Assembly (NCBI GenBank): GCA_032622095.1
Contig: CP136068.1
Location: 159,173,465 to 159,237,464, forward strand
Origin: Siphonodentalium dalli
Lineage: Eukaryota > Mollusca > Scaphopoda > Gadilida > Siphonodentaliidae
Reading direction: 5' to 3'
DNA length: 64,000 nt
Shown here: positions 917-62,880 of the stretch, piece by piece
Position numbering within the stretch: position 1 is the first letter of the stretch
Layout: each line of letters begins with the position of its first letter
Program-made: the position numbers and the translations under genes
Notes under the pieces: generated by a model
Databases searched by the model: none
The model's input: only the letters and a program-made list of their open reading frames with translations
What the model was told of the DNA's origin: nothing

Positions 917-974
917 ATGATAATTCCAGACGTCTTTATTCTGCTGCTCATCAACATCGCTGGCGTATATGGAG
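917..974 (+). CDS. Exon 1: signal peptide
   Basis: ATG at 917 opens 19 codons reading [19 protein letters not shown], a short N-terminus, a hydrophobic core and a small residue suited to signal-peptidase cleavage. The exon ends in phase 1 at a GTTAGT donor (975). Its last base G joins the first two bases of the SRCR exon to give Gly, so the mature protein would start just before the SRCR beta-strand TARLIGEV. This start is chosen because it is the first ATG upstream of SRCR that gives a hydrophobic leader with the right phase. No promoter motif could be assigned upstream. The alternative is that this is a chance leader and the true first exon lies before the window. Confidence 0.6.
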
Positions 975-3900
975 GTTAGTATGTGATTGATCTAATGTAT
1001 TAGTGATTCATAACTAATTACTCCATTATTTCCAAACTAACTCTTCCTGGTATTTCGGAATATATTGATTCTATCGTGTCAGAAATGTATCTGGTGTTTC
1101 AGAGCTAACTGTGTATTTCAGAACAAATTATTTCGAGTGTTTCATACTATAGTGGTTCTATAGTTTCAGAACTAACCGTTTCTAGTGTTTCAGTACTAAC
1201 TGTTATAATATTTCGAAATAAATGTTTCTAGTTTTTCAGATCGAGCTGGTCATGATATGTGTTTGGCACTAACTGGTTCTAGTAATTCAAAACTATTTCT
1301 AGGGTTTGTCATTTTTTTTAAAGGTCTCTGTGATTGACTATCATCTAAAAATGTTAGGTCAAATACATTCGCGTGTAAACAGAAATAGTTCAAAATACGG
1401 CGCCACAAGTGTTGTTGACGAAGCGACCATCAACATATATATTATGCCAGGCAAAAATGGGCATAGGTGTGGCCTCGAGAGGGAATTTATGAAACCTACA
1501 TTTTTTGGTTAGAATAAATACTTAACTTTCGGAATCCGTATGCTGGATTTAGGTAGGCATATTTTTTTTTCACCATTCTGTTTTCTTGAGTCACTCCGTG
1601 AAGAAATCGGTCATTTTATAAATAAAGCCGATATTTTTGACAGAACATGTTCACACCTTTCGAGAAGAGATATTCATGCAATGTTTATAACTGAGAATGG
1701 GGCGATGGCCAGTGCAATATAATACGATATAATACGTGTAACCATTGAATCTCGGAATGTCAATCATGAAGTCATGCAACGTCAACTATTTATTACAGTG
1801 AGAATAATATGACGATTCACGCAAACCGCTGTCTTTCGGCAAACTCCATGCATCGCCCTCTCAGTTATCACTGCGATAGATCACTCCCAGAAGGATGGTA
1901 CTTTGCGGACCGATACATGTATTGTTACATATCGTCAGAACTATATTTAGTCACCTATTATATTAGTTTGACCACCAAAAGTTTGCAATAATATAATTCA
2001 TTCCGTATTGATGTGAACTGTACGAACAGAGCCAGACATATACAATTTTAATCCTAAAACATAAGAACTAAGATCATGTCAGAAATTCTTACCAAATGTC
2101 CTTGTGACAGTGGTATCTCAGCGGAGCGATGGGAGATAACTCTGCCTGGAATTTGGTCTGTCGATTCTCATAAAACATGTGCGCAATCACCAAGTATGTT
2201 TCTAATCGCATTTATAACACCCAATAATGTACGATCTCGACAATAACCATCCAGTATCCTATAAACTGGACTCGATGAACAAAGGAGTGACGGCATAGTC
2301 ATGTTTCAAGCGATTTTATTAAAATTGTTAAACGCGAACTATCGAATATTGAATGATAGCGATTATAATACTCCATACGGTATTATAAAGATAACTTCGA
2401 TATAAGGCATATATATACATTATTGATAAATTGATATATAATTGTGTGCGTGTGTAATTGTGCATAAATTGATATGTACACTTCTAAGCCTATTATTATA
2501 ATAAATGATTAGTGTTATTATATCTATTTATTTATAATGTTTATTTATATATATTTATAATAATATGTATAATATGTATGTATATGTACCATGTTATATG
2601 TAAATAGTGATCAAATGTTATCACGATACCATAATATTATAAAAATAGGTTAAGAGAATAAAGAATTGAATTGAATTATGAATGGGGGGGTCGGGTGATA
2701 TCAAGTACAGTGATATCCAAAGATATGCATCACAGCTGATCGCACGCGAAACAGAGGATGAGGAGTATGTCCCTTAAGTCCATGTATATCTTACGACGAG
2801 TCGGATCATTTATATCGTGCTTGTTATACATGTGTGCATACTAATTTTGTCAAACATATGGGGGTGGCATACACTGTTCCCATGACGATGTGTGAACAGC
2901 AGAGCACAGCACTGTTTGACGCCCGTCTGACCGAAATAATCTGAGTAAGCGTACCTAAACGGCGAAGAGAACGATAAACAACAAACCAGACCTAGCAACC
3001 GCCATTGGTTACTATCTCTTAACGAACCTTGGAGTATGGGGTACATTCAGTTAAAACGACACCGAGCTTGGAAGTTGGATCGTATCCAACAGAACGGCCC
3101 TGTGCCAATGCATTCTCTTATATATGCGAGTCGACCATAGGTCGCCTCGCATATATAAGAGAATGCATTGGCTTAACACATTACAAATTATAAAATTGTT
3201 AAAGAATGTAAGAAAAAATGGTAAAAACAGATTTGTTTTAGGCCAATGCATTCTCTTATATATGCGAGGCGACCTATTGTCGACTCGCATATATAAGAGA
3301 ATGCATTGGCACAGGGCATAAGTGTAACCATCACAATGTGGTCAATGAGCCGGTTCCAATGATATCCATATGTGTATGGTTTTATTGAGACAGACCCAAG
3401 ATAATTTAGGCTGTTGCAGCTTTATTTGGCTGTTTTTGGCCGGTTTGTTGGGTAAAGGGTTAAACGTGCTATAATTAAGATATGTTTTATTATTGTCGTT
3501 ACGACGCCAATGGCCGTAGGAACAGAACGTCCTATAATTATTAAGTTATTGGATTGCTATTGTAGGCACGGCACGGTTGATCGGAGAAGTGAATGCGACT
3601 GAAGGACGCATAGAGGTGTTCACCAATAACACGTGGGGTACAGTGTGTGCTGATGGATGGGATACATTGGACGCTGAGGTAGTTTGCCGGCAGCTCAGTC
3701 TTGTGTAAGTATTGAGTTTCGAAAACCCTTTAACTTTTTCCGTGGATGCTGGGCACATGTTGGACATGTAGCCTACTACTGAAGTAATTTTCTAATTTCA
3801 TTTATGATATTGTTTCTTGAACAGAGGAGGACAGGCAAAGTATTACGCTGGAATTAATGACACAGTTTCGATGGTCAATGTCACGTGTGCTGGCAGTGAG

Positions 3901-6900
3901 TTACACATCCAGGATTGTCCCTATGAAACTGGCATAAATTGCACATCGATGAATGAAGCAGGCGTGGAGTGTGGTAAGTATCAAGTTTAGTAATGTACAA
4001 TTTGTTTCTGCTCGTTGATGATTGTGCCGCTTGATCGATTGTACACCTAACATGTCTATTAAATATATTTGAAAGAATGTGTCCTATCTCCCGGATGATA
4101 AACGCATTAGTCATAAAATGCGAAATATACATAAATGTTGTACTATCTGGCGTTTAATAGACATTTGCTATAAAATATTTGATAATATTCAACCGGACAA
4201 TAACTCGCTGTATTCCAAAGATCAAATCACAAGTAGCTTAATTGTGAAGCCCCATGGTCCAGTGGTTAGAATGACGGATTTGCCTTTGCTATCAACACAT
4301 TGATACAAGAAAACTAAGATGCATGCATCAGGTCGGCCGTGAACTATCTACCATAGAATTGTTGTAGCTATCGATTATACATTTTGAAACACCTGTCTGT
4401 ATGTATGTGTGTATGCGTGAATGCATGTGTGTATGTGTTATAGACTCTAACACTGCTCGAATTTGGTATTTAACGTGTCAACTTGACCTCGCTCATAGGC
4501 ATGTTTCTGGACCTTGACCGATCCGACTAAAAATTTGTGTGTATAGGACTACTTCGATCCCGGGAGCAATATGGACGGGTCCAATTTCACGTGGGACCAT
4601 GTTCTCGAACGTGCTGATATAGGCATGTTTCTGGACCAATTGAACAATAGTTTGGCCAGACGCTGTATATACTGGGTACTGTCCAGATGGAGGCGATCAC
4701 AAAAAAAATCCCTAACTAGCCCGAACGAAGTCGAGTACATCAGCTAGTTTAATATATATTTTGGACATTTGTCTGTCTGTTTGTCTGTTAGCTATTGCCG
4801 GGAAAACTGCCGGACAGATTTGACGAAATTTGATACCTAGGGGAAATTATTTCCAGGGAGTATTTTGGACGGGTCAAATCTTGATCCCGACCTGACTTTG
4901 ACATTCAAAAAGATCAATTCAAGGTCAAATCTGGTAAAACGGAAGTATTTCAACGAAATTTGATACCTACTGTTACTTTTGTCCCAGGAGTGTTTCGGGT
5001 GGGTCAAATCATGACCCTGACCTGATCTTGACATTCAAAATTGTCAATTCAAGGTCAAATCGGGTATAAAGCCGGGCGGGTTTCGACGGGTACTTTTGTC
5101 GTGACTTTTGTCCGGGGAGTGTTTTGGACGGGTCAAATCGTGACCCCGACATGACCTTCACCTTTAAAATAGTCAATTCAAGGTTAAATCGCGCATTTCT
5201 CCGAAAATCAGAGGGGAACATCCCGGACGAAGTGGGGTCCACGAGCTACTATTATATATTTCTAGATTTAGTTACAAACTAAATACCTGTATATTGTACA
5301 AAGAAATGTTTGACAAATATATCTGTATCAATATTACCATACGGGTCATTAAAATAGAAACGACGAAACAAATTTTGAAGGGTGCATGTATCAGGTAAAT
5401 TTTTATATTTCAAATGATGACAGGAATGCAGAAAGTTGAAGTACCTACGTAATACTGGCTATCCGCATGAAGAGATATACATGTATATAAAAACCAGATG
5501 AGGGATATGTCTGTACAGTTGCTAAACAATTCAGTCATGCAAAAGAGGATCAAAGAGTAAGATACCAAATTGCTGCCTGTGGTAATGTTTTTTAACGAAA
5601 TTCGGGAAAATTAGATTACTCTCACCCTGGTTATCCAGAAGATAATTGTGGAATCTGATGACAGTTTGAGAACAAAATATGGCTCACATCTAGCGGTGAC
5701 CCAAAATATCCACATAAGAAAAAGTTCTCCAATAAAAGCTGGCTGCAGGGTGCGCCAATTGATTCAAATTCGAAATTTAGCAGGGTGTACTGCTTGTGGC
5801 CATGTTTTCCCCGCAAATTTGATAGACTGATGGACAAAACCACTGAATCCGTTGATTCAATATACATGTATACATGGATTAATTTATATGCATTGTTATA
5901 CACAGTACTGGTATATAAAGGTACTGAAAATAACTATATTACTAGTATACACAAAATAAACCATATATCATGGCTATGGGTTCTAATATCCGAACATGAC
6001 AGCTGAGAACTTGGTGTGAATTAAAGAGTGGTGGTTTCTCAAGCATATCTAACCCTCCACGTTAGAAACATGCCATTAAATGTCATAAGTATAATCTAGC
6101 TTGAGGACAGAAGTGATCCATAAAACCCCCCTTAATTCAACCAGGTCATCGCGCGATGTATGATCGATCACATGATGATCTAGGGGGATTAGAATTGATG
6201 TATAAAAACAGCACTGCATGTAAATATAAAATAAAATAGTGCTACATCTTATTACAGATTATTGCCATATATAATCAGTGATTATACAGACAGTCTGACA
6301 AAATAAAGTTTCAGTGACACTCTATCCGAAGAGGGGAATAATTTCATCTGTTACAGTCAATGGAGCAATTATGAATCTGGAAAGGTGAAATTTCTAAGTA
6401 ATACTAGATATCGACAATACGCGATAAAATATAACGTAAATGCAATATGGCCGCTGGCGACCATTTTTTCCTATGAAATTAAAAAAATATTTGATAGGTC
6501 TCATCTGATAGATCAATATCAAGATAAATATGAAGTTTGGTGATGATCGGATGAGTGAAGTGGACTGTGGTCTGTGTGTAAATATAAAATAAAATAGTGC
6601 TACATCTTATTACAGATTATTGCCATATATAATCAGTGATTATACAGACAGTCTGACAAAATAAAGTTTCAGTGACACTCTATCCGAAGAGGGGAATAAT
6701 TTCATCTGTTACAGTCAATGGAGCAATTATGAATCTGGAAAGGTGAAATTTCTAAGTAATACTAGATATCGACATGACGCGATAAAATATAACGTAAATG
6801 CAATATGGCCGCTGGCGACCATTTTTTCCTATGAAATTAAAAAAATATTTGATAGCTCTCATCTGATAGATCAATATCAAGATAAATATGAAGTTTGGTG

Positions 6901-9900
6901 ATGATCGGATGAGTGAAGTGGACTGTGGTCTGTGCTAAACGGTTTAGTAATGCTTAAAAATATTCTTACCTTAATATTTTTATGTTCACTTTATAAACTT
7001 CACTGAGTCATCTTTGTCATGTATTGAGTTTGATATCTTTTGTTAACAGTTTATAAATCATGTATGTCTCATGTTTGTTATTTTAATTTATGTGTTTATT
7101 ATCATTAAATAAAGTTGCATTCCTTAAAAAGATTCTTACCTCAATGTTTTTATGTTCACTTTATAAACTCCACTGAGTCATCTTTGTCATGTATTGAATT
7201 TGATATCTTTTGTTAACAGTTTATAAATTATGTATGTCTCGTGTTCGTTATTATATTATATATACTTTATAGTGTGTTTTCAGAACGAAAAAAATTGAAT
7301 AAAATCAACAAATTTGTAAATTTAAAAACAATTCAAACGTTGTTGTATTCCATGTCCCAGCCCGGACATATACACCAATATTTCAATAATATTCATTGAG
7401 AAACAACGGACCAAACGCTATATAACACCCGTATACATCTTTTATTCCGAATCGGACTCGGGTACATGTTATAGTAGGTACCGAATTGACACACGTCGAC
7501 TGGGCGAGTTGGCCATGGGGCGATTAGGCCGATTCCGGCATATTCTATAATTTACCGTATGTATCCGTTTACGCGTAGTTTACTTTAGAAAGTTCCGCAA
7601 TTAATACCGTAAATAGAGCGACCTTATTTGACAGAGAATGCCTCTGTTATTGATTATCAAGTTGCTGTACATTAAAAACGACAAATTCACATGCTCGTTC
7701 AAGCGCAGTAGTCTATTTTCCCCATGTTAAAGGACATCCACAAATACTAAATAACGCTAACCTACTGCCGAATGTTTGACACGACAACTGTTAACATATT
7801 TGGGCTGAATTCATCTGACGCGGTATTATTCCTCAAAATAAACAACAAAACCATCGTTACTTGGAAATGTAGTTTGGGCTAACATTTACATAAATCCTCC
7901 AGATCAATTATCCGACACACACGTCAGATGAAAAAGTCACATGAAGTAACCGGCCAAATTGGCCGAAATGAGTTTGCAGCTGTTCTTGGCCGAATTGATT
8001 GACGTGCAATTGTCCGATCGTATGCGGTTCAAATTTCGCGCCAAGCTTTGACCCTTGATAACTGTGACGACTGATTCGCACCACCATGTGCTAAAATACT
8101 ACTCGGTACGGGTGTCCATATACCTTGTCAATACAGACCTTTCGCGAAATAACTATTACGATTACGGATATGATATATTGTCCTAGTAAGATGGACACCG
8201 TCACAATGTACCTATGATGGTTAATTGATGAGACTGCAGATGCCCCACTATGCAGTTACAAATATATTTGATGGAAAAATCAATGTGTGTTTCTTTCAGA
8301 TCCCATGTTCTTATATGTGTGTTATACACCACACGGATGATGTTAGAGCGCCCCCAAGCAGGACCGGTGTCACAACCTTGCCACATGTTCACATAATTGA
8401 ACTGAGTGGGTATATTTCGTCTCACATAAACCCCCGAGCGTAGAGATATAATTTTGGCCTTATAATGGCAGGACACTTGATTTTCATGTATTTTCTTGCA
8501 GACATCGATGAATGTTGCAGATCGCCATGTCAGAATGGAGGGGCCTTTAGTGTCGTGGTTAATGGTAACGGGTTTCGATGTCGATCTGAATAAATGAACG
8601 CGGGAGCCCTCTAACCACGCCCCTTATTTGGACGGTGCCATTTGATTTCCATGTTTCTCTTGCAGACATCGATGAATGTGGCAGAACGCAATTTGAGAAT
8701 GGAGGGGCGTATAGTGACAGGTTACACGTGTTCAAGTGGACCCGGGTATAATGACCACGGATACCCCCTTGCAACACCCCTTACTCGGACGGCGACACTT
8801 GATTTCAATTGTTTTAAAGACATTGATGAATACGACAAAACGCATTGTCATAATGAAGGGACGTGTAGTGACGGGGTTCATGACTATATGTGTATATGTC
8901 GAACCAGATATAATGAACCCTGTGACCTCTGGCCAAGCACCTGTCTGACGTTGTTACATGATTTCCCTTTTTTTGTTGTTGAAGCTATCGACGAATGTGA
9001 CAGCATCCAATGTCAGAATGGAGGGACGTGTGTGTACGACCACGAGTATGGTGACCACTGGTGCGACTGCCCTCCAGGGTACAGGGGTTTTAAATGTCGA
9101 ATAAGTAAGTGCTATTCTTTAGTTGATCTGGATACAATGAGTGGATACCTCCATCCCCACCCCTATTCTGAATGTTACGCATATATGAATCTAGCATCTC
9201 GCCAAAGCGTAATGGAGTGACGTGTAGGTTAATAGCTACAGTTGTACAAGTCCACCCGTATATAATGGCATCGGAGGAGACCCTCTAGCCACGCCCCTAA
9301 ACCGACGGTGGCACTAAAGTCTTGATTTCACTTGATGTAGCAGCAACATATGTCAAAATGGAGGGGCGTGTAGTGAGGAGGTTAATGGTTACACGTGTTC
9401 ATGTCGACTCGGATATAATAAACGTGGAGACCGTCTAGCCACGCCACGCCCATATTTGGACGATGACACTTGATATCCCATGTAATTATAATTGTTTAAA
9501 GATGCCCCATTCGATTTGAAACTGTAAATCTACTGACATTTTTCAGGTTTTCCAACCCGAATATGTTTATTCAAATCAAATCACACCTACCATTTGTTTT
9601 TGCCACGTCTCTGGTCGACAAGGATGTCTTTCTGGCTAACGCGATGTTTTATTCGAGAGGGTCCTATGTTTATGTAGGATAGAACGAGAATGAACATAGA
9701 TGCATGCCAAATAATACATTTATGCTGTACTGTGGTTAAAGTGATGTCAACAGTAAATTGAACCTCACAATTGAGTTCCCTGCGTCATTCTGTGGGAAGA
9801 GTGAATAAAATAACTCAGATACACGAAACCCCCCCCATCCTGAAGTCAGTTTGTACACATTATACGGCCATTCGGCTAACTATTTCTATTTCATCAATCG

Positions 9901-18900: not shown

Positions 18901-19417
18901 TGAGTACTGTAAAATCACTGCGATATAACGGCAGTTTCCATTTTTCATGGGTGTTGCGATCGGAAGACGGAAACTGGTGGCCGGTGCTACAAACCTGTTG
19001 CCGGTGCTATTAATACATGTACATTTGTATCCATCCAGCTAATTAATACACAGTGTCTTGGCTAAGTTGGCTTCAATGGGTTTCATTGTGTATAGGTTTC
19101 TCGTTTAACATTGTATTATGACACTTCATCATTCCATATCCGGACACATTAGTCCATACTCATACTGAATTAATTACACACATACTTGTAGTGACTATAG
19201 TGACAGAGAAAACGCAATAAACGTTTTGGTATAATTATTGTATTCAATTAAACTGACGTGACGCGACACACATTGAATGAAAATCAAAGGATTCGAGGTG
19301 CGGCTGCTCATATAGTTATCTTTGATCGGACATCGTGGAACGATGTATAGATAGATAGATAGATAGTTTATTGGTCAGAATGCTATTCAGATTAAACAAT
19401 GTTACAAATATAGATAT

Positions 19418-19466
<49 letters not shown>

Positions 19467-52400: not shown

Positions 52401-53237
52401 TGTGGGAAAAGTGGATGCAGGCGGGAAACATTAATACAAAATGTTCAACATCACCTCCACAGTCGAAGAACTGAAGAACTATTTCGCAAGATTATTGATT
52501 TGTGTTTATCTCATTGAAATTATCAACTGAGGTATTTTTTTCATAAAGTAATTTAAATAATATGAATGACTCTGTCTTCAACTGTTAACACTTTCATGAG
52601 AGGAGCTGCGCTGGCGCAGCATTAAACACCATGTGCCAATGCATTATCTTATATATGCGAGTCTACCGTAGGTCGCTTCGCATATATAAGAGAATGTATT
52701 GGCCTAACAATTGTTTATCTTTTTTTGTTTTTTTTACATTCTTTAACATTTTTTATCATTTTTGTGACATGCAATAACAATTGTTATAATTTTTTCATAT
52801 GTTCTTTAACACTTTTAATTTTTTTAAGCATTTGTTCTTGTATTCTTTAAAATATTTTGATCATTTTTTATATTTTTATCTTACATTCTTTATCAATTTG
52901 TTATAATTTTTTCATGTTTTGCTTACATTATTTTGCAATTAATAATAAGGATGGCTTACAAGGTCAAGATAAATATTGTTAGATGAATGCATTCTGTTAT
53001 ATATGCGACGCGACCTATGGTGGACTCGCATATATAAGAGAATGCATTGCCACAGGGTTTTCGCAAACTTTCAAGAAGGTCCAGTCATGAAAGGGTTAAT
53101 AGCGTCTAAAGAACGTGCGCGTGACAGTCGTTCATGCCAGTCCCACCAAACTATCATGCATACATACAAACGCTCATGATGTATGTTCATGTCAGTCCCA
53201 CCAAACTATCATACATACATACATACATACATATACA

Positions 53238-53271
<34 letters not shown>

Positions 53272-56200
53272 CATACAAACTCTCATGATGTATGACCATT
53301 CATTTCAATAGTTTCACCTTAATTCCAATATTCTAGTCAGGGATCGATGACATTGCTCCGAGCACCCGATATCCCAATACAGATCACATCGGCTGGAAAA
53401 TTGGAATGGAAATTTATGGGTGACATCATGACGTCATGTGAAATGAGCGCCGATCTTTTTCCATTTGAGGAGCACCAATGTGAAATCAAATTCGCAGTTG
53501 TCGGATACACATCTGAGTTTGTCCGGATCGCAGTACCCAACGGGCTGGTTACAGCTAAAATAAGGTACACAAATCAGCTTTATATACCAGATAACGTACA
53601 CAAATCAACGTTGTATACTGGATAATGTTCACTATATAATTATAAAGTACACAAATCATCTTTATATACCGAGCTAAAATAATGTACACGAATCATCTTT
53701 ATATACCAGATAATATACACAAATCACCTTTGTATACCGGATAATGTTTACTGTATAATTATAAAGTACACAAACCATCTTTATATACCGACCTAATCTA
53801 AGGTACATACATCATCTCTGTATATACCGGATATAATGAGTAAAAAATAAGGTAATTAAATCTTCTTTATATACCAGATAATGTTTACTCTATAATTATA
53901 AAGTACACAAACACCCGATCCACATAGCCTTATCAGACAATATAAAACGTATTTTCGACAAAATAGCGGAGATCTCTGAAACAATTTACAACACCACAAC
54001 AGATCAACTTTGGCCGTATGTAAGTCAATTTTCATCTACTGGGTGGGTGGTCATGGGCAGGTTTGGGGTCATTCTTTAAAATCACTTCTTCGAGAGAAAA
54101 AGCGGGCTTGAAAAAACGCTCTTCAAATGTTGTTTATTTTTTGTTTTGTTTTTTTCAGTTCTGAATATCTCCTTTATTTAGTCAATTTAAATTTCTTCGG
54201 AAAAAAATCTCTTTAAAAGAATCGCTTTTATGTTTAATTTCTGAATAGTTCCGTTATTTCGTCAATATAATCATCACGACGTGTCCGTGGTCAGTTCAGT
54301 ATTATGAATTATATAACCGAATGGTGGGCTCGATGGGCTATGAGGTACACACTTAAGGATATACAGATGGTAAATAATGCCCGCAGTTAAGTATATATAT
54401 CGGATAACGCTATGTAACGCTATGTAACGCTATGTAACGCTATATAATTATGAGTATGTTCTTACACAGTAATATCGTCAGCTTCACCGATGTAACTTAC
54501 GACTTAATATCTAACGTTGATGTGCGAATATAGTCACGACAAATTTCGCTGTCGATTCGATGCGGACGGCGACAAAAGCTTTTACGAAGTCGCCCTATAA
54601 GTTATGACATGCAGACTTCACATGTTACCTATAACCAAAGTGCTATACATAGAGCAAAGTGAACTTACAACTTACAAAACTTGACATGATTATGGCATAG
54701 TACTAAGGTAGTGGTTATGCATGTCGTGTGTATACCCATGCGTCACAGGTTTATGTTTTGTAAGCATGCTAGCGTATCGTTTTTATCTCAAGCAAAAACA
54801 TGGACTGGATTCTTGACACAGGAGACACAATCACCAGCAGTCAGCTCGGAAAGATATCCTATGCAGTCCTTCCATTCACATTAACCAGACAGCCGCTCTC
54901 CTTCCTCGTCGCCAATGTTTTACCAGCTATGATCGCAGCGCACCTCGGACCACTCGTCTTTTACCTACCACTGAGCTCCGGAGAACGCATGGGGTACATC
55001 ATCACGGTGGTCCTCGCTTTCGTGTTCATGAACACTTCTGTGAATGCCATGCTACCAGCTCAGTCGGGAACGATATTAGCTCTCGGTACGTATATTTGAT
55101 GGATAAATACATGTATACCAGCTCAGTCGGGAACGATATCAGCGCTCGGTACGTATATTTGATTGATACATACATGTATACCAGCTCAGTCAGGAATACT
55201 ATCAGCCCTCGATACGTATAGTTGATTGATACATAGATGTAAACCAGCCCAGTCAGGAACGATATCAGGCCTCGGTAGGCGTATCTGGTGAATAAGTATA
55301 CGCATACCAGCCCAGTCAGGAACGCTATCAGGCAACGTTACGTATATCTGATTGATATATACATGTATACCAGTCCAGTCGGGAACGATGTCAGCCCTCG
55401 ATACGTATAGGTGATGGATACATACATGTAAACCAGCCCAGTCAGGAACGCTATCAGGCAACGCTACGTATATCTGATGGATATATACATGTATACCAGC
55501 CCAGTCAGGAACGCTGTCGGCCCTCGGTATGTGTATTTGTTGAATACCTACATTTATCTTACAATTTAGCTATTTATCCTCAAGTACACGTGTAAACGTC
55601 TAGATTTCAGATCTTGTATCCTAGATTTCAGATCTTGTATCCTGGACAGCAACAAGGATATCCTGGACGGCAACAGCGAGTGTACGTGCGTTTTGACAAC
55701 TAGCTTGTTTTCAAAACAAAGCATCTAAATAACCAATTTAAAAGCCGTAAAATGAATTAGCGTGGGCTACGAACGTAAAATAATAAATACTTATGTCAAC
55801 CAAAGTGGAAAGAATGTGGAGAGAGGACAGGACACGACCGAAAAAAGAAAAAAAAACGCACCGCAAAATGTTCCGAAATTTAAAAAGCAACACATTATTT
55901 ACAGCGCACACGAATACGGACTATTTCAACAATTCATATTGTAAACTAACTAGGGAATTCCCCACAATTTTAGTACGGTCTTGGTCAGAAGCTGCTGACG
56001 GCAATGTTTATTCGATAAAGTTCAGAAGGGAAAATGAAATAAAACTATATTTTGTTTAGGATACAAGAGCGATTACGAAAAGTCCGTACTTTCATCGCAT
56101 TTCCCATGAATTCATTTTTTTATTTAAAGAGTGATTTAGATGCGTAAAACAACGTCTGCATTTGAAATTTCTGCGTGCAGAGTACACAATGTAAATCCAT

Positions 56201-62200: not shown

Positions 62201-62880
62201 CACCCGCCATAGATGCGCAGCTTATGTGAGCACAATGCACTATACATCTTACTAACCGAGCTACCGGGGTCACCCAATTGTTACTATTATTTCCCTTAAG
62301 CATCAAAGGGACCGCTAACTCGACGTTTATGTCAAATTTAACGCATTTTTAGTCGACCAATGGCATCGCAATTAAATATATGCACTACAGCTACAACGTG
62401 GCTTTCATTTTCTTGCAGCTATCTACCTTCAACTATTGGGTCTGAACGGCGTGCTATGCATTCTATTCTCAATGTGGAACATGGTGGTTAGCAAACGCGG
62501 TGTCAAACCCGTTCCCAAGGCAACGGAAATCATCATCTGGATGATTCAAAACGCTTCACAGCAAAGAAGATATAGAAAAATACAACCAACCCCCAATACC
62601 CCCAACCCCCAATACCCCCAACGACAAACCGCAGCAATTTTCTGAACGAAGTCATGCTGAACTGACGCCACCCGAGACCGTAGAGACACAACTATCAATA
62701 CATGACGACCTTCCAATCTCCGCTGAAGTCAACCTCAACGAAACCGAGACTGATTTACAAGTTGGAAAAGTATCATGGCAACAGGTGGCGGAAATATATG
62801 ACGTAATATGCTTAGTAACATTCTCCCTATACAACATTATGCTGACGCTGGTGTTTGCGTGGGAAATGAACTTAATCTGA
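917..62880 (+). CDS. Multi-exon gene: signal peptide-SRCR-EGF-mucin repeat-Cys-loop ligand-gated ion channel
   Basis: Gene model joined from 917-974, 3566-3704, 3825-3973, 8985-9104, 13970-14089, 15199-15312, 24518-24862, 26255-31371, 40643-40687, 46227-46330, 53337-53564, 54793-55085 and 62419-62880. Each exon is bounded by AG and GT, and phases agree at all twelve junctions. Predicted product is about 2,430 residues: secreted N-terminus, one SRCR domain, EGF repeats, Thr-rich linker, about 1,660 residues of mucin-like repeat, then a nicotinic-type ligand-binding domain and M1-M4. It should be a plasma-membrane channel subunit with an enormous glycosylated ectodomain. Linkage of mucin to receptor is direct, in one exon. 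Linkage of SRCR, EGF and Thr-rich exons rests on strand, order and phase and needs cDNA. Optional exons may be missing. The only defect seen in the receptor part is a 2-base irregularity in the last exon. Confidence 0.72.
1010..1305. repeat. Degenerate short tandem repeat in intron 1
   Basis: About nine loose copies of a unit built on TTTCAGAACTAACTG followed by TTCTAGTGT, spaced 30-45 bases. Every copy contains a TTTCAG or TTCTAG acceptor-like word, but none opens a recognisable exon. Confidence 0.55.
2122..2193 (+). CDS. Possible small phase-1 exon, unrecognised
   Basis: Between an AG (2120-2121) and a GTATGT donor (2194) lies an open 72-base stretch that begins and ends in phase 1, so it could be spliced between the signal peptide and SRCR exons without disturbing the frame. 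It would add 24 residues including [19 protein letters not shown]. The motif matches no domain I know, the polypyrimidine tract is weak and there is only one cysteine. It may be chance. Confidence 0.2.
2350..2685 (+). mobile_element. LINE-like 3' tail
   Basis: Very AT-rich stretch ending in AATAAAGAATTGAATTGAATT, the kind of short-repeat terminus found on CR1/RTE-type LINE 3' ends. The minus-strand LINE at 32-40 kb ends in a similar word near 31975. No reverse-transcriptase coding is seen upstream, so only a 5'-truncated tail would be present. Confidence 0.35.
3047..3465. mobile_element. Fold-back element, copy 1
   Basis: Two hairpins of about 75 bases (3101-3175 and 3242-3313) face each other, each built from CCAATGCATTCTCTTATATA paired with its complement around a GTCGACC/GGTCGCC centre. 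The outer ends read CCCTGTGCC and GGCACAGGG (3098-3316). The right flank, 3317-3370, is the reverse complement of the left flank of copy 3 (31435-31496), so the element extends beyond the hairpins. The core inner spacer is AT-rich and non-coding. Confidence 0.7.
3566..3704 (+). CDS. Exon: SRCR domain, first half
   Basis: Begins after TTGTAG with two bases completing a Gly codon, then reads [20 protein letters not shown] and continues with [21 protein letters not shown], the hallmark of the scavenger receptor cysteine-rich fold. It carries the second and third canonical cysteines. The first and fourth positions are not Cys, which makes this a group A-type domain. It ends with a GTAAGT donor after two bases of a Val codon. 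SRCR domains are extracellular and usually bind polyanions, microbes or proteins; the ligand here cannot be read from sequence. Two NxT sequons (NAT, NNT) suggest glycosylation. Confidence 0.9.
3825..3973 (+). CDS. Exon: SRCR domain, second half
   Basis: Follows an ACAG acceptor. Reads [20 protein letters not shown], then four cysteines in [14 protein letters not shown] and GVEC order, which completes the six-cysteine group A pattern. Splitting of one SRCR domain across two exons is typical of group A, whereas group B domains are usually in one exon. It ends phase 1 at GTAAGT, so the pair of exons is phase 1 at both outer borders. Only one SRCR domain is present. Confidence 0.9.
4247..4310 (+). 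repeat. tRNA-like SINE head fragment
   Basis: CCCCATGGTCCAGTGGTTAG resembles the 5' end and A box of a tRNA-Glu-type gene. No B box or acceptor stem follows, so it is at most a truncated tRNA-derived SINE head, not a tRNA gene. Confidence 0.3.
4480..5245. repeat. Dispersed repeat with internal tandem units (copy A)
   Basis: Three or four loose copies of a unit of about 120 bases with the words GGACGGGTCAAATC, GACCTTGAC, and CAATTCAAGGTCAAATC, preceded by TGTCTGTCTGTTTGTCTGTTAGC and GGGAAAACTGCCGGA. A single-unit copy with the same head lies at 58225-58420. This is a dispersed non-coding repeat; its open frames are by-products of the repetition. Confidence 0.7.
6219..6934. repeat. Near-perfect 358-bp tandem duplication
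   Basis: 6219-6576 and 6577-6934 are the same sequence apart from about three changes (around 6415 and 6498 in the first copy). The unit starts TGTAAATATAAAATAAAAT and ends GTGGACTGTGGTCTGTG. No coding potential is seen. The near identity indicates a recent duplication. Confidence 0.9.
6953..7300. repeat. 170-bp tandem duplication
   Basis: CTTAAAAATATTCTTACC at 6953 recurs as CTTAAAAAGATTCTTACC at 7123, and about 150 bases after each match closely. ATTAAATAAAGTTGCATTCC closes the first unit and looks like a polyadenylation-type terminus, possibly of an old retroelement. Confidence 0.75.
7301..8480. other. Intron sequence without recognisable features
   Basis: Unique-looking intron DNA between the SRCR and EGF exons. 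Short reading frames on both strands overlap without matching a family. Confidence 0.5.
8502..8593 (+). pseudogene. Degenerate EGF exon A1
   Basis: After a TTCTTGCAG acceptor the frame reads [20 protein letters not shown] and then NGFRC, reaching TAA at 8591. The EGF third cysteine is replaced (GGAF instead of GGTC), one cysteine of the CxC pair is gone, and no donor is visible. It is a decayed copy of an EGF exon and is unlikely to be spliced into the message. Confidence 0.65.
8666..8751 (+). pseudogene. Degenerate EGF exon A2
   Basis: Starts after TCTTGCAG with [19 protein letters not shown] and then loses the EGF frame, running to TAA. Cys2 and Cys3 are replaced. The preceding intron (ACCACGCCCCTTATTTGGAC...) matches the spacer before the other EGF copies, so exon and intron were duplicated together. 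Confidence 0.65.
8820..8935 (+). pseudogene. Degenerate EGF exon A3
   Basis: After TTTTAAAG reads [20 protein letters not shown] then [11 protein letters not shown]. Five of six cysteines survive; Cys1 is Tyr and no GT donor closes the unit in frame. It might still be recognised if an unusual donor is used, but decay is more likely. A second copy with further changes lies at 13801-13918. Confidence 0.55.
8985..9104 (+). CDS. Exon: EGF-like domain 1
   Basis: A pyrimidine-rich tract and GAAG acceptor lead into [16 protein letters not shown], then [14 protein letters not shown]. This is a complete six-cysteine EGF module with the usual CxC and Gly-Tyr. The exon is phase 1 on both sides and ends at GTAAGT. 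The Asn/Asp-hydroxylation consensus between Cys3 and Cys4 is absent, so strong calcium binding is not predicted despite the IDEC start. Its close twin is the exon at 13970-14089, with about three base differences in 120. Confidence 0.85.
   Translation, partial: LSTNVTASNVRMEGRVCTTTSMVTTGATALQGTGVLNVE
9333..9455 (+). pseudogene. Degenerate EGF exon A4
   Basis: Reads [19 protein letters not shown] then [13 protein letters not shown], with a stop immediately before the first cysteine and no acceptor in place. A closely similar copy lies at 14265-14370. Confidence 0.6.
10540..12420. repeat. Inverted-repeat unit rich in CTTAAG palindromes
   Basis: Dozens of short palindromes of the type TTTGCGCTTAAGCGCAAAT or TTACGCTTAAGCGTAA line two arms, about 10540-11070 and 11870-12420. 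The arms are inverted relative to each other: GAGTCCATCTCATATTATAT at 11045 answers ATATAATATGAGATGGACTC at 11876. Between them lies a roughly 185-bp tandem duplication (11130-11300, 11310-11480, each ending TTCCCTCATATGGTG). No protein is encoded. Confidence 0.75.
12421..13391. other. Remaining part of the TTAA-flanked insert
   Basis: Non-repetitive at first sight. Short frames on both strands give no recognisable domain. Confidence 0.4.
13801..13918 (+). pseudogene. Degenerate EGF exon B3
   Basis: Second copy of the unit at 8820: [19 protein letters not shown], then a short insertion that breaks the CxC frame. It has more substitutions than its partner, so it is not expected to code. Confidence 0.6.
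13970..14089 (+). CDS. Exon: EGF-like domain 2
   Basis: After TTGTTGAAG reads [16 protein letters not shown], then [14 protein letters not shown], ending ATAA|GTAAGT. All six cysteines, both splice sites and phase 1-1 are kept. Only Gly-to-Ala before Cys3 and Pro-to-Leu after Cys5 differ from EGF 1. The flanks match as well, so this exon arose by segmental duplication of the 8.7-9.5 kb block. It may be spliced in tandem with EGF 1 or used alternatively. Confidence 0.8.
   Translation, partial: LSTNVTASNVRMERRVCTTTSMVTTGATVFQGTGVLNVE
14265..14370 (+). pseudogene. Degenerate EGF exon B4
   Basis: Copy of the unit at 9333: [20 protein letters not shown] follows an interrupted start without an acceptor. 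It is cut at 14380 by the element beginning CAAGTTCAAGTTCAAG. Confidence 0.55.
14381..14820 (-). mobile_element. Retroelement 3' tail insertion
   Basis: On the minus strand the segment ends ATAAATAAAGCTTTTGAACT followed by GAACTT repeats, a typical non-LTR 3' terminus. It splits the degenerate EGF unit from the CCACGCCCCTATTCGGAC spacer that resumes at 14823. No reverse-transcriptase motif was recognised in the open frames inside. Confidence 0.5.
14823..15185. repeat. 65-bp tandem array upstream of EGF 3
   Basis: Between five and six copies of a 65-bp unit starting CCACGCCCCTATTCGGACGA and containing TGACACTTGATATCCCATGT and GGAGACCCTCTGG. The unit is the short intron that normally separates EGF exon copies, amplified alone without the exon. 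Confidence 0.9.
15199..15312 (+). CDS. Exon: EGF-like domain 3
   Basis: TTTGTCTTGCAG leads into [15 protein letters not shown], then [20 protein letters not shown], ending at GTAAGG. All six cysteines are present. It is phase 1 on both sides and 114 bases long. It has the C-x-D-x4-Y-x-C consensus for Asp/Asn beta-hydroxylation and a D-x-N-D start, so it is the best candidate for a calcium-binding EGF in this protein. It is the most intact and least duplicated of the three EGF exons. Confidence 0.88.
   Translation: MSMIVAPRHVRMEGRALTWLMITGVHVNPGTRVIGVK
15461..18382. mobile_element. 2.9-kb non-autonomous element with CACTG ends
   Basis: Starts CACTGAAAAAAAAAACTTAG and ends with the exact complement CTAAGTTTTTTTTTTCAGTG. 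Subterminal arrays of ACTAAG/CTTAGT words (15470-15700 and 18265-18370) line both ends. Both flanks carry CA next to the element, so a 2-base target duplication is possible. CACTR ends plus subterminal repeats suggest the EnSpm/CACTA group. No transposase was recognised inside. Confidence 0.65.
17770..18062. repeat. Internal inverted repeat in CACTG element
   Basis: ATCGCAATACGATAGGGGAA at 17775 is answered by TTCCCCTATCGTATTGCGAT near 18035. The loop of about 230 bases contains a short hydrophobic open frame ([14 protein letters not shown]) of unknown meaning. Confidence 0.5.
18513..19230. repeat. EGF-cluster spacer, copy 2 (intact)
   Basis: Uninterrupted second copy of the spacer at 9480-9739 plus 13392-13690, with a private middle part (18895-19110). 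It supplies the empty-site reference for the TTAA-flanked insert. Confidence 0.75.
19345..20260 (-). mobile_element. LINE 3' fragment (reverse-transcriptase C-terminal region)
   Basis: Minus-strand frame 20253-19831 reads [20 protein letters not shown] and continues with [13 protein letters not shown] and [15 protein letters not shown], the conserved C-terminal region after the RT thumb in CR1/RTE-like non-LTR retrotransposons. Downstream on the same strand the sequence ends in TGACCAATAAACTATCTATC repeats (19345-19375), a LINE-type tail. The RT core and endonuclease are absent, so it is 5' truncated. Confidence 0.75.
19413..19463. repeat. TA microsatellite
   Basis: Uninterrupted TA dinucleotide run of about 50 bases inside the LINE 3' end. 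Confidence 0.9.
23039..23167. repeat. Perfect 55-bp inverted repeat hairpin
   Basis: Arm 23039-23093 (AGAAATAAATACACGGTGTA...) is the exact reverse complement of 23113-23167, separated by a 19-base loop. A transcript would fold into an uninterrupted 55-bp stem. Confidence 0.9.
23480..23560. repeat. Imperfect hairpin
   Basis: ACACAACTGAATGATATCGG pairs with CCGATATCATGCAGTTGTGT around a TGTACTGTCAGTACATGTACA centre. Confidence 0.7.
24200..24470. mobile_element. Fold-back element, copy 2 (truncated)
   Basis: From ATTTTACCCATACAGAGC to the terminal hairpin (24377-24455) and GGCACAGGGTAAAAAAAATCCCGACTT. It matches the right two-thirds of the full copy at 61119-61554. The left hairpin is missing. 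It ends about 45 bases before the Thr-rich exon. Confidence 0.75.
24518..24862 (+). CDS. Exon: Thr/Ser-rich mucin-like linker
   Basis: The AATTTCTCAATACAG acceptor is followed by a 345-base exon, phase 1 at both ends, closing at GTATGT. It encodes about 115 residues dominated by Thr with Ser, Ala and Val in short runs such as [16 protein letters not shown], plus a few NxS/T sequons (NTS, NTT). No cysteine is present. This is a typical O-glycosylated spacer. Its low complexity means it could also be fortuitous, but the matching phases and sites on both sides and its position next to the big mucin exon support it. The antisense frame, rich in Val, is a shadow. Confidence 0.7.
24863..26254. other. 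Intron between the two mucin exons
   Basis: Contains an open stretch, about 25080-25400, whose plus-strand frame reads [20 protein letters not shown] and [16 protein letters not shown]. It has protein-like composition, but I recognise no family, no phase-1 splice pair frames it, and stops lie upstream. The rest is AT-rich and featureless. Confidence 0.4.
26255..31250 (+). repeat. 54-bp coding minisatellite, about 92 copies
   Basis: The unit is 18 codons; consensus core words are CAATCAACAGTCAATACTAC, TGACCCAGTGGCAGCTGAC and CCGACCACTACGGTA. Almost all copies keep exact length. One unit near 29905 has a small in-frame expansion of Thr codons. Blocks of many units are themselves duplicated at an offset of 27 units (see findings). 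Confidence 0.95.
26255..31371 (+). CDS. Giant exon: mucin-like repeat stalk fused to receptor N-terminus
   Basis: Opens after TCAATCAACAG in phase 1 and stays open for 5,117 bases to a GTGAGT donor in phase 0. The first 1,665 or so residues are tandem 18-residue units of the type [18 protein letters not shown], cysteine-free. Each unit is rich in Thr (O-glycosylation) and most carry an NTT or NNT sequon (N-glycosylation). The last 40 residues leave the repeat and read [20 protein letters not shown] then [17 protein letters not shown]. This is the N-terminal helix and first beta-strand of nicotinic-type Cys-loop receptors (compare LxxxLFxxYxxxVRPVxN...VTVxxxLxLxxLxxV). The transition lies inside one frame with no intron, so mucin and receptor belong to the same polypeptide. 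The antisense frames are shadows of the 54-bp periodicity. Confidence 0.92.
31378..31736. mobile_element. Fold-back element, copy 3
   Basis: Paired hairpins at 31496-31570 and 31636-31708, with CCCTGTG and CACAGGG outer ends. The left flank (31435-31496) is the reverse complement of copy 1's right flank. The right end runs GTTCTGTTGGGTAAAGGGTTAA. The left end may be the TTAACCG just after the splice donor of the giant exon, which would give TTAA at both ends. This assignment is tentative. Confidence 0.65.
31975..33201 (-). mobile_element. LINE, 3' part (minus strand)
   Basis: On the minus strand, 33083-32754 reads [18 protein letters not shown], then [15 protein letters not shown], and [20 protein letters not shown], followed by [11 protein letters not shown] in another frame. 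This is the C-terminal region of a CR1/Jockey-type non-LTR retrotransposon ORF2. Two or three frame breaks are present. The tail near 31975-32000 ends AAATAAATTGAATTGACAAT. The 5' portion of the same element continues at 38342. Confidence 0.75.
33816..34160 (+). mobile_element. LINE C-terminal zinc-knuckle scrap
   Basis: The frame at 33816-34091 reads [20 protein letters not shown], then [20 protein letters not shown]. The CxC...H...C knuckle after an R-L-R-x-K motif is the standard end of many LINE ORF2 proteins. No RT domain precedes it. It lies inside the 5.1-kb element on the opposite strand to the interrupted LINE. Confidence 0.7.
34560..37100. repeat. Degenerate satellite array, about 190-bp period
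   Basis: The word GCCAGCCGCTTTTTGTAAAG recurs with changes about 14 times (for example 34588, 35036, 35583, 35788, 35966, 36320, 36526, 36910). Each is followed by AACCAAC/CCATCCATA, a TTAATATTGAGAGCATAT-type word and GTGTTCAAGACTTCAAAT. Divergence between units is high, so the array is old. Confidence 0.8.
38342..40480 (-). mobile_element. LINE, 5' and RT part (minus strand)
   Basis: Reading on the minus strand: an endonuclease remnant ([33 protein letters not shown], 40400-40190); a linker (39987-39540); RT motifs [37 protein letters not shown] and LLQNQTGFR (39368-39096); a FEKAFDRV motif (about 39010); and a thumb-like segment [11 protein letters not shown]...[16 protein letters not shown] (38642-38403). 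The order fits a CR1/Jockey-type LINE. The catalytic FADD box is not visible in an open frame, and several frameshifts and stops are present, so it is inactive. It continues at 33201 beyond the nested element. Confidence 0.82.
40643..40687 (+). CDS. Exon: receptor ligand-binding domain, 45-nt exon
   Basis: After CACTTTACAG reads [15 protein letters not shown] and ends at GTGAGT, phase 0 on both sides. It corresponds to the beta1-beta2 segment DVDEKNQVLTTNxWL of nicotinic receptors. Vertebrate nicotinic receptor genes have a 45-nt exon at exactly this place, which strongly supports both the exon and the receptor family. The loop D aromatic (usually Trp) is Phe here. Confidence 0.88.
42050..42215. 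repeat. Long hairpin
   Basis: AACACGTTTAAGATTTGGAA and CTCGACATGGGCGCAGACATAT are answered by ATATGTCTGCGACCATATCGAG and TTCCAAATCTTAAACATGTT. The inner stem is GACACGTCCG/CGGACGTGTC. Probably a small non-autonomous inverted-repeat element. Confidence 0.75.
42540..42800. repeat. Short tandem duplications
   Basis: The block GGTTTAGGCTAAAGATTAAA, AATCGATCGGCAGATTGGTC and CCCCGTAGAGG recurs two to three times with period 85-125. Non-coding. Confidence 0.6.
44004..44150. repeat. Long palindrome
   Basis: TACGCATAGTGTTTCTGAAT...ATTTAATCCACTCGTGG on the left is mirrored by CCACTCGTGGATTAAAT and ATTCAGAAACACTATGCGTA. The centre at about 44085 is CACGAGCTTCAGCGAGTGG. Confidence 0.85.
44208..44322. 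repeat. Second palindrome beside a GA microsatellite
   Basis: ATATAAGATTTTATGAAA...TTTGATTCACAACGAGTC pairs with GACGAGTTGTGAATCAAA...TTTCATAAAATCTTATAT. A GA run (44188-44212) precedes it. Confidence 0.85.
44850..45990 (-). mobile_element. Crypton-type tyrosine recombinase remnant (minus strand)
   Basis: Minus-strand pieces read [84 protein letters not shown] and NHSARKF. This is the DUF3504/KIAA1958-like tyrosine recombinase carried by Crypton DNA transposons; HxxR in NHSARK is part of the catalytic set. About three frame breaks lie between the pieces, and the N-terminal part (45990-45600) is eroded. It sits in the intron between the 45-nt exon and the next receptor exon. Confidence 0.75.
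46227..46330 (+). CDS. Exon: receptor ligand-binding domain, loop D to loop A region
   Basis: ATATCCTCAG is followed by [20 protein letters not shown] and [12 protein letters not shown], and the exon ends in phase 2 at GTGAGT. It matches the nicotinic WTDxxLxWNxxxxxGVxxI...IWxPDIxLxNS segment, including the structurally essential WxD...LxW and W-x-P. The loop A Tyr of ACh-binding subunits is His here. The border falls after Asn of the NS pair in phase 2, where vertebrate nicotinic genes also have an intron. One NNS sequon is present. Confidence 0.9.
47652..48941. repeat. 30-bp minisatellite, about 43 copies
   Basis: Unit TGATGTAGGTTCCTGGCCAT plus GGCACCGCTC. Because 30 is a multiple of three, several frames stay open on the minus strand (for example [10 protein letters not shown] repeats). 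No splice or start context supports a gene. It lies in the intron before the Cys-loop exon. Confidence 0.95.
49190..49410. other. AT-rich intron segment
   Basis: A TTC-rich run (49190-49225), then unique-looking sequence. No gene seen. Confidence 0.3.
50660..52140 (+). mobile_element. LINE RT C-terminal fragment (plus strand)
   Basis: Plus-strand pieces read [31 protein letters not shown] (50709-50912), [20 protein letters not shown] (51080-51140), [20 protein letters not shown] and [16 protein letters not shown] (51840-51990). This is the thumb and C-terminal region of a non-LTR retrotransposon, 5' truncated and frame-broken. A GC-rich tract (51500-51830) with SCTTTTCGCCT-type repeats interrupts it and may be a separate insertion. 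Confidence 0.65.
52585..53105. mobile_element. Fold-back element, copy 4
   Basis: Diverged hairpins at 52633-52705 and 52985-53056 enclose about 280 bases of T-rich sequence. The outer ends read TTAACACTTTCATGA (52585) and TCATGAAAGGGTTAA (53085), forming an inverted repeat ending in TTAA. Several mismatches in the stems suggest this is an older copy. Confidence 0.65.
53200..53275. repeat. CATA microsatellite
   Basis: CATACATACATA run between two copies of AAACTCTCATGATGTATG-like sequence, about 60 bases upstream of the Cys-loop exon. Confidence 0.85.
53337..53564 (+). CDS. Exon: receptor Cys-loop and loop B region
   Basis: The TATTCTAG acceptor is chosen over the TCAG four bases later because it alone keeps phase with the previous exon and restores the conserved Asn-Ser (HSN|S). 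The exon encodes [17 protein letters not shown], then [21 protein letters not shown]. The two cysteines enclose exactly 13 residues with the FPF motif, which defines the Cys-loop family. In loop B the Trp of ACh binders is absent (AVVGYTSEF). It ends after ATA AG at a GTACAC donor, in phase 2. Confidence 0.92.
53555..53930. repeat. Tandem copies of the exon end and splice donor
   Basis: The AGCTAAAATAAG|GTACACAAATC exon border is echoed at 53671-53692 (GAGCTAAAATAATGTACAC) and 53790-53807 (GACCTAATCTAAGGTACA). Intervening AAATCATCTTTATATACC and GGATAATGTTTACTATATAA units are also repeated. The period is about 118 bases for the long unit and 30-45 for the short one. Confidence 0.65.
53931..54792. 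other. Intron before the M1-M2 exon
   Basis: Contains four copies of CGCTATGTAA (54409-54448). Otherwise unassigned. Confidence 0.45.
54793..55085 (+). CDS. Exon: receptor loop C, M1 and M2
   Basis: After TTTTTATCTCAAG reads [20 protein letters not shown] with no vicinal Cys pair in loop C, so it is not an alpha-type subunit. M1 is [19 protein letters not shown], with the conserved Pro. M2 is [18 protein letters not shown], then TSVNAMLP. It aligns without gaps to nicotinic M2: Glu at -1', Thr at 6' and Leu at 9' are kept, as in cation-selective channels, while the acidic 20' residue is Ala. It ends after ILAL plus one base at GTACGT, phase 1. No anion-type Pro-Ala at -2'/-1' is present. Confidence 0.92.
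55055..55555. repeat. 63-bp array built from the M2 exon end and its donor
   Basis: The unit starts CCAGCTCAGTCGGGAACGAT, includes CTCGGTACGTATATTTGAT and ends ATACATGTATA. Copies start at 55055 (exonic), 55118, 55181, 55244, 55307, 55370, 55433 and 55496. Each repeats about 31 coding bases and the donor region. Confidence 0.95.
55556..56230. other. Intron segment, unassigned
   Basis: A short direct repeat of TAGATTTCAGATCTTGTATCC lies at 55600-55640. Lys-rich short frames at 55760-56060 match no family. Confidence 0.4.
56235..57900 (+). mobile_element. Crypton-type tyrosine recombinase remnant (plus strand)
   Basis: Starts [20 protein letters not shown] and continues in pieces: [106 protein letters not shown], then [18 protein letters not shown] and [20 protein letters not shown]. 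This is the whole length of a DUF3504-like Crypton recombinase. R of GMRTG is kept, the HxxR box has decayed (NNCIRK), and the terminal Tyr region (VNNYSVAS) is still readable. Several stops and frame breaks are present. Termini were not identified. Confidence 0.8.
58090..58215. repeat. Hairpin with about 50-bp arms
   Basis: TATCACCACCCTGTGTGTTTCCGAG... pairs with CTCGGAAACACACATGTTGGTGATA, and CTGCCTTCTCTGG pairs with CCAGAGAAGGCAG around a GCTGT loop. Confidence 0.8.
58225..58420. repeat. Dispersed repeat (copy B)
   Basis: Same family as 4480-5245: TTTGTTAGCAATGGGCGGGA, AACTGCCGGACGGGTCAAAT, CTTCAAAATGGTCAATTCAA, and a GTCCGGACGAAATCGGGTC end. Here it is a single unit. Confidence 0.7.
58540..59280. 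repeat. Tandem pair of hairpin elements
   Basis: Two units of about 370 bases (58540-58917, 58918-59280). Each opens with a hairpin of about 140 bases (TTAAATAAT...GAGGCGAGA...GACGT with its complement, around GTGCGC..TAGCGCAC), followed by ATCAATTTGGTTCGCCAAA, AGTAAGCGACGT and TTTCAATGGAAATCGCGCAT. Internal divergence is moderate. Confidence 0.8.
59660..59825. repeat. Degenerate 21-bp tandem repeat
   Basis: Copies of TTGATTAATCAAGATAGCTA with small changes. TTGATTAATCAA is itself a palindrome. Confidence 0.7.
60166..60790. repeat. 27-bp minisatellite, about 23 copies
   Basis: Unit CTGATATAAACATGTATGCC plus CATTGGA, nearly uniform. The 27-base period leaves several frames open on both strands; these are not genes. 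It lies in the last intron. Confidence 0.95.
60893..60962. repeat. TC-rich microsatellite
   Basis: CTCTCCCTCCCTCCCTCGCT followed by TCTC runs. Confidence 0.85.
61119..61554. mobile_element. Fold-back element, copy 5 (most complete)
   Basis: Terminal inverted repeats begin TGTGACCCGCCATATCAA and end in its complement. TA lies immediately outside both ends, so a TA target duplication is likely. Inside each end is a self-complementary hairpin of about 75 bases (61168-61240, 61431-61502). The 190-base middle matches copy 2. It encodes no protein, so it is a non-autonomous MITE-like element. Confidence 0.8.
62115..62285 (-). repeat. tRNA-derived SINE remnant (minus strand)
   Basis: On the minus strand CCGGTAGCTCGGTTAGTAAG is a tRNA-type A box. 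Downstream, TGTGTGACCTACGCGCAGGG plus ACGTTAAATT occurs twice in tandem. No B box was found. Confidence 0.4.
62419..62880 (+). CDS. Last exon: receptor M3, intracellular loop and M4 (2-base irregularity)
   Basis: After TTTTCTTGCAG, phase 1, the frame reads [20 protein letters not shown] (M3), then [20 protein letters not shown] and a Pro-Asn-Thr tract, and meets TGA at 62643. From about 62590 another frame is open and protein-like: [33 protein letters not shown], then [19 protein letters not shown] and [14 protein letters not shown] (amphipathic MA helix and M4), ending at TGA 62878-62880. The switch falls in tandem units of ACCCCCAAT (9 bp) at 62590-62625. The middle unit is 7 bp, two bases short of its neighbours. 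If real, the subunit would lack M4; if polymorphic or an assembly slip, the receptor is complete. Confidence 0.85.

Follow-up and report, generated by a model that had tools for sequence, protein, structure and literature searches.

The window analyzed here, 64,000 nucleotides from the scaphopod Siphonodentalium dalli, is animal-type DNA with 39% G+C, introns, and transposon fragments, and Rfam and tRNA scans found no match in the 64-kb window. On one strand, 13 exons with AG/GT borders form a chain of agreeing phases that runs from a signal peptide, with its start ATG at 917, to the third membrane helix (M3) of a nicotinic-type channel. The modules follow one another in the order signal peptide, one SRCR domain, three intact EGF domains, a Thr-rich exon, mucin-like repeats, a nicotinic-type ligand-binding domain (LBD), and helices M1 to M4, with a stop codon at 62880 behind an M4-like stretch. 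The features, in order of position, are as follows.

917..974, + strand: exon 1, ATG and signal peptide; donor phase 1
3566..3704, + strand: first half of SRCR; phase 1-2; Pfam SRCR, 1.5e-12 on the open reading frame (ORF) 3538-3705
3825..3973, + strand: second half of SRCR; phase 2-1; Pfam SRCR, 3.8e-5 on ORF 3808-3987, alone under the curated cut-off
8985..9104, + strand: intact EGF exon with six Cys; phase 1-1; Pfam EGF, 8.7e-9 on ORF 8615-9217
13970..14089, + strand: intact EGF exon, near-identical duplicate of 8985-9104; phase 1-1; Pfam EGF, 1.1e-4
15199..15312, + strand: intact EGF exon with six Cys; phase 1-1; Pfam hEGF, 2.1e-8, and EGF, 6.1e-8
24518..24862, + strand: Thr-rich, mucin-like exon of 114 codons; phase 1-1; no Pfam match
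26255..31371, + strand: mucin-like exon whose repeats continue without break into the LBD (N-terminal helix, first strand); phase 1-0
40643..40687, + strand: 45-bp LBD exon; phase 0-0; top of 15 open 45-bp AG/GT candidates
46227..46330, + strand: LBD exon ending in HSN; phase 0-2; Pfam LBD, 0.0052 on the exon alone, under the cut-off
53337..53564, + strand: LBD exon with the 13-residue Cys-loop (53437-53481); phase 2-2; Pfam LBD, 4e-10
54793..55085, + strand: end of LBD, M1, and M2; phase 2-1; Pfam Neur_chan_memb, 3.6e-7
62419..62880, + strand: last exon, with M3, cytoplasmic loop, M4-like stretch, and stop; M3 falls within the octopus receptor alignment (query to residue 298)
62586..62622, + strand: perfect 16-bp tandem duplication, 2.3 copies, in a C-rich stretch of the cytoplasmic loop; frame change between M3 and M4

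As assembled, the exons encode 2352 residues, and the product ends after M3. A domain search of the joined product, which the initial annotation had proposed as a check, returned matches to SRCR (8.8e-19), EGF (1.3e-6), Neur_chan_LBD (2.6e-23), and Neur_chan_memb (1.3e-7). An arm of about 2,000 residues lies ahead of the channel, which accounts for about 420 of some 2,430 residues and is therefore one sixth of the protein, not the C-terminal third given earlier. The single strand, module order, and matching splice phases described in the initial annotation are confirmed up to M3, beyond which M4 is out of frame. Donor scores are uneven, with 4 of the 12 model donors (LBD4, Thr-rich, SRCRa, and M1M2) at 0.4 to 1.7.

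One open exon, 26255-31371, holds both the array of repeats and the beginning of the LBD, with no break between them. Mucin and channel had previously been treated as separate, in-phase modules; the shared exon is sharper evidence. Past the repeats, the tail of the array corresponds in alignment to the part of nicotinic subunits that forms their N-terminal helix and first strand. With a profile built from seven nicotinic-type proteins, the score was 90.2 bits with the true tail, 75.1 to 79.1 bits with 20 shuffled tails, and 74.8 bits with the tail removed, so that the true tail is worth 11 to 15 bits more than the shuffled ones. The 49-residue tail alone had no match in a PDB search or in Pfam, and it scores only in context. 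Among the 15 open AG/GT-bordered 45-bp exons that can be written from 31390 to 46220, that at 40643-40687 scored 90.2 bits and the other 14 scored at most 83.8. Because array and LBD start share an exon, and because the tail and the 45-bp exon raise the nicotinic match above the controls, we consider it close to certain that the mucin-like region and the channel belong to one gene.

The giant mucin stalk of the initial annotation is borne out by a Thr/Ser-rich array of 1,665 residues with an open coding frame, made of about 92.5 to 93 copies of an 18-residue repeat. Its repeats have a high content of Thr, Pro, and Asp and many sites for N-glycosylation (36.9% Ser plus Thr, 10.5% Pro, and 85 N-X-S/T sites), and the 1705 codons of the exon contain no stop. 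None of the 383 single-base codon changes in the array makes a stop (7.1 expected), and 87 are synonymous (113.3 expected) and 296 nonsynonymous (262.6 expected), a ratio of 1.47, although these figures are rough since the copies are not independent. The third codon position is the least variable, and there is no amino-acid conservation beyond frame and composition. The lack of stops among the changes and the ratio of 1.47 indicate a frame that is maintained although its residues drift, a pattern known from many mucins. Within the Thr-rich exon, variation is greatest at the third position, and the reading frame has 0 stops, versus 6 and 2 in the other frames. Membrane-bound mucins combine one membrane helix with a SEA or related domain. 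The trait that this protein has in common with them is the long run of Thr/Ser/Pro-rich tandem repeats in the ectodomain; the array matched no Pfam family, there was no SEA or similar domain with a single membrane helix among the Pfam matches, and the stalk ends in a channel. Two further arrays in the window, of 30 bp (47652-48942, 43 copies) and 27 bp (60162-60791, 23 copies), are also open over long stretches, in several frames.

The channel region was compared with solved structures in the PDB, where 194 distinct sequences matched at E<=0.01 (best, 1.1e-22); the 60 best of these 194 are all pentameric-channel subunits. The top solved relatives are octopus chemotactile chains (1.1e-22 and 1.2e-22), followed by muscle alpha (1.1e-21) and neuronal subunits, with a lead of about 3 bits for the best octopus match over muscle alpha (84.1 versus 80.7 bits) in what are pairwise scores, not a tree. 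The Cys-loop has the form C-13-C at 53437-53481. In the alignment to muscle alpha, Val occupies the loop-B Trp position, the loop-C Cys pair is absent, and the loop-D Trp is kept. The signature of acetylcholine-binding nicotinic alpha subunits, a vicinal Cys pair and the loop-B Trp, is therefore missing. M2 starts with SGE, its inner end thus bearing a Glu, and retains a Leu in the gate position; these two features argue for a cation pore. A sensory role not involving acetylcholine is more likely, given the lost acetylcholine-binding signature and the place of an octopus sensory receptor at the head of the solved relatives, and the best reading of the channel is an acetylcholine-insensitive, cation-type sensory channel with a recognition arm. 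It may sense mucus, microbes, or force, as initially suggested; the channel features favor none among them.

Tandem arrays also occur at the borders of the channel exons. An array with units of 31/119 bp (53553-53833) starts at the donor of the Cys-loop exon, and five copies of the string GTACACAAA lie between 53565 and 53903. Likewise, a 63-bp array of 8 copies (55053-55557) has its start within the M1-M2 exon, at the 3' end, and extends into the intron, spreading copies of the exon end and its donor, such that the exact donor string CTCGGTACGTA is found at both 55082 and 55145.

Of the nicotinic-type channel originally described, the LBD, the C-13-C loop, and M1 to M3 stand, whereas M4 was recognized only by eye, from a W..VA.I.D pattern, and has no significant family match. 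M1-M2 matched at 1.3e-7 and M3 is in frame; the M4-like stretch lies in another frame, with the change occurring around the perfect 16-bp tandem duplication. Pfam returned no match in the M4 region, on either 62545-62877 or 62376-62642, and the M4-like stretch scores -3.8 bits in the nicotinic profile. An intron in place of the frame break was considered, but inspection by eye gave no convincing combination of donor and acceptor with a fitting phase. The frame change may be allelic, may reflect a slip of the assembly, or may truly interrupt the gene.

At the other end of the gene, the SRCR domain (PF00530) is complete, covering profile positions 5 to 99 of 100 at 8.8e-19 once its halves are joined. 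The EGF repeats noted previously prove to be three intact exons, two of which (8985-9104 and 13970-14089) differ at two residues of 39, and seven further EGF-like stretches (near 8502, 8670, 8820, 9336, 13670, 13815, and 14270) that are degenerate, having lost Cys, frame, or donor as judged by eye. Because of these seven, part of the arm may be decaying. An EGF block is present twice in the same order, at 8660-9470 and 13640-14410, with all but the two intact exons degenerate. A 65-bp array (14824-15180; 5.5 copies, 98%) sits directly 5' of the splice acceptor that opens EGF exon 15199-15312, and a 358-bp tandem duplication with 99% matches occupies 6219-6934. A short dispersed element with a similar one-frame reading recurs across the window, in plus-strand ORFs that start near 3023, 3242, 31402, 31636, 52626, 52983, and 61104.

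Whether this SRCR-EGF part and the channel form a single gene depends on the 9-kb gap between the last EGF exon and the Thr-rich exon (15313-24517). The rival explanation is that of two neighbors, a secreted or membrane-bound SRCR-EGF gene followed by a mucin-stalked channel with a first exon of its own that was not recognized. Phases agree at every module joint, and the Thr-rich and mucin exons begin in phase 1, matching the phase-1 ends of the EGF exons; nevertheless, SRCR and EGF modules are usually 1-1, so this agreement carries only moderate weight. First exons that combine a hydrophobic leader with a phase-1 donor were sought at thresholds chosen so that the control 917-974 passes; the scan found that exon as the sole match in 1-974 and no rival in 975-15198 or in 15313-26254. 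With a mean of just 0.33 matches in shuffled sequence for the latter interval, the chance expectation is itself low, and finding no rival is weak evidence. A first exon with a weak donor could escape the scan, considering that 4 of the 12 model donors score 0.4 to 1.7, as could one with a split signal peptide or another phase. Laxer donor cut-offs gave 0 and then 1 candidate in 15313-26254, the weak one at 20158 (chance, 0.65 and 1.2 +- 1.5), and 2 and then 3 in 975-15198. Similarly, a search of 15313-24517 for phase-1 terminal exons with a TM-like stretch gave two, against 1.0 +- 1.1 in 20 shuffles, so the terminal-exon candidates, like that at 20158, are at chance level. Among the ten plus-strand and ten minus-strand ORFs taken from introns and flanks, Pfam matches at E<=0.01 numbered 2 and 3, respectively, all of transposon type (DUF3504, phage-integrase type, and reverse transcriptase). 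Remains of these three types lie at 39099-39512 (-), 45014-45618 (-), and 56953-57867 (+). With phases in agreement and no convincing rival first or last exon found, we judge a single gene from SRCR-EGF through the channel to be likely, probably with an SRCR-EGF tip on a mucin-stalked channel, and two neighboring genes to be unlikely.

Another explanation accepts the fusion but holds that it was made once and is now a pseudogene; in its favor are the M3-M4 frame change at the 16-bp duplication, the degenerate EGF stretches, and an array without amino-acid constraint. The other twelve exons, however, amount to 6,832 bases that are open with AG/GT borders, and the intact EGF exons keep their six Cys. 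The duplication, moreover, is perfect and so would be recent, unless it reflects an error of assembly or haplotype within a C-rich repeat. We therefore regard a dying gene as improbable. An assembly artifact, in which separate loci were joined such that the mucin-channel gene is real and its 5' part misplaced, could have arisen from the tandem arrays in which the window is rich (56 rows). It seems very improbable, given that strand, order, and phases are consistent over 62 kb, and given that the mucin and the LBD start lie inside one exon, which leaves no room for a between-exon misjoin there. The originally proposed channel with an SRCR-EGF-mucin arm is partly supported, as the best reading of the shared mucin-channel exon, the chain of phases, and the scans that gave no convincing rival signal-peptide exon between the EGFs and the mucin exon; a single transcript from SRCR to M4 would be expected on this reading.

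Searches of a protein database used composites of different lengths. For the channel region of a 693-residue composite, none of 3896 candidates matched at E<=0.001, and for that of a 1500-residue composite (candidates of about 825 to 2625 residues), none of 4915 matched at E<=1. With the channel alone, 7 of 4508 candidates reached E<=1, at 22 to 26% identity. Five of these seven are vertebrate beta-type subunits; the remaining two are a nicotinic-type protein without a name and a protein from a gastropod, and no other Pfam domain occurs in any of the seven. These searches need shared 5-residue words, and absence of the layout is thus unproven. Within this limited sensitivity, no protein with the SRCR-EGF-mucin-channel layout came up, nor did a literature search at the level of titles and abstracts find a paper on one.

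Cys-loop receptors are usually compact, with an LBD, four helices, and a short leader. The present channel resembles nAChR subunits in its LBD with a 13-residue Cys-loop, its membrane helices, and its pairing of a 45-bp phase 0-0 exon with a phase 0-2 exon after it, which is the arrangement in CHRNA7, where a phase-1 intron stands behind the signal peptide. Unlike nAChR alpha subunits, it has neither the loop-B Trp nor the vicinal Cys pair, and an arm of about 2,000 residues takes the place of the short leader. With octopus CRT1 (PDB 8eis and 9e6b) and squid CRB1 (8eiz), it shares the SGE at the inner end of M2; the chains of these cephalopod chemotactile receptors, however, are 379 to 410 residues long among the matches listed, with no arm. 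Octopus chemotactile receptors are described as also lacking common ligand motifs (PMC10338036), and as derived from nicotinic receptors, assembling into homo- and heteropentamers, and having hydrophobic molecules as their activators (PMC11526382).

Bivalve nAChR genes are described as strongly expanded, to 99 to 217 (Jiao et al. 2019, PMC6896357), and some lophotrochozoan nAChR genes have gained dynamin or GAIN domains, with products of up to 2013 amino acids in oyster; the words SRCR, EGF, and mucin do not occur in the main text of that study. The expanded molluscan genes tend to be intronless (PMC6896357), unlike the intron-rich gene reported here. Alpo4 of Alvinella pompejana is a nicotinic-type orphan that also lacks the loop-C Cys pair but keeps key binding-site aromatics, and the passages of PMC10338036 on Alpo4 mention no arm. 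In the prokaryotic DeCLIC, an extra domain before the LBD appears to affect gating (PMC12664993); that channel, however, is bacterial, its lobes resemble prokaryotic calcium-binding domains, and no mucin stalk figures in the passages describing it. An Ambulacraria-specific expansion of nAChR-like channels has been described in sea cucumber (preprint, PMC13228809). One survey of the family deliberately discarded terminal parts and asks for work on domain architectures (PMC4795631).

Taken together, the reading toward which we lean, with modest confidence, is that of one gene encoding a nicotinic-type pentameric channel subunit with a signal peptide/SRCR/EGF/Thr-rich/mucin arm, putatively a cation-conducting sensor for something other than acetylcholine. 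Its N-terminal extension would consist of the signal peptide, the SRCR domain, up to three EGFs, the Thr-rich linker, and a stalk of about 1,660 residues. This architecture probably originated through exon shuffling, in which SRCR, EGF, and Thr-rich modules with phase-1 boundaries were inserted into the phase-1 intron that follows the signal-peptide exon. The repeat would have expanded inside the exon that begins the LBD.

Since the subunit N-terminus is at the receptor apex, the stalk would extend outward from the cell surface, and a homomeric receptor would bear five such stalks rising through mucus or glycocalyx. Extended mucins measure about 0.25 nm per residue, at which a 1,660-residue stalk would span about 0.4 micrometer. 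SRCR/EGF tips may attach to the surfaces of microbes or matrix, holding ligand or load close to the channel, whose cation pore would be opened by a ligand other than acetylcholine. The arm could position the tips within mucus, trap particles or microbes, keep ligand close, or transmit load; of these functions, we consider force gating less likely than the capture or positioning of ligand. A broader idea, which we offer tentatively and consider rather doubtful, is that of a class of armed channels that combine a pore with a pattern-recognition mucin, in which tip binding or a pull on the stalk gates or feeds a non-acetylcholine channel.

If true, innate recognition and electrical signaling would be joined in one molecule, with arms of several hundred nanometers. 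An armed subunit would show that the receptor apex can carry adhesion modules, and it would give a plain exon-shuffling route by which 1-1 modules are added behind a signal peptide. It would also offer a testable link from mucus or microbe recognition to ion flow. The finding bears on what the many non-acetylcholine nicotinic-like receptors of invertebrates sense, and, for a cell that carries such a subunit, the sensing of things held at a distance in mucus or in a surface coat could become possible.
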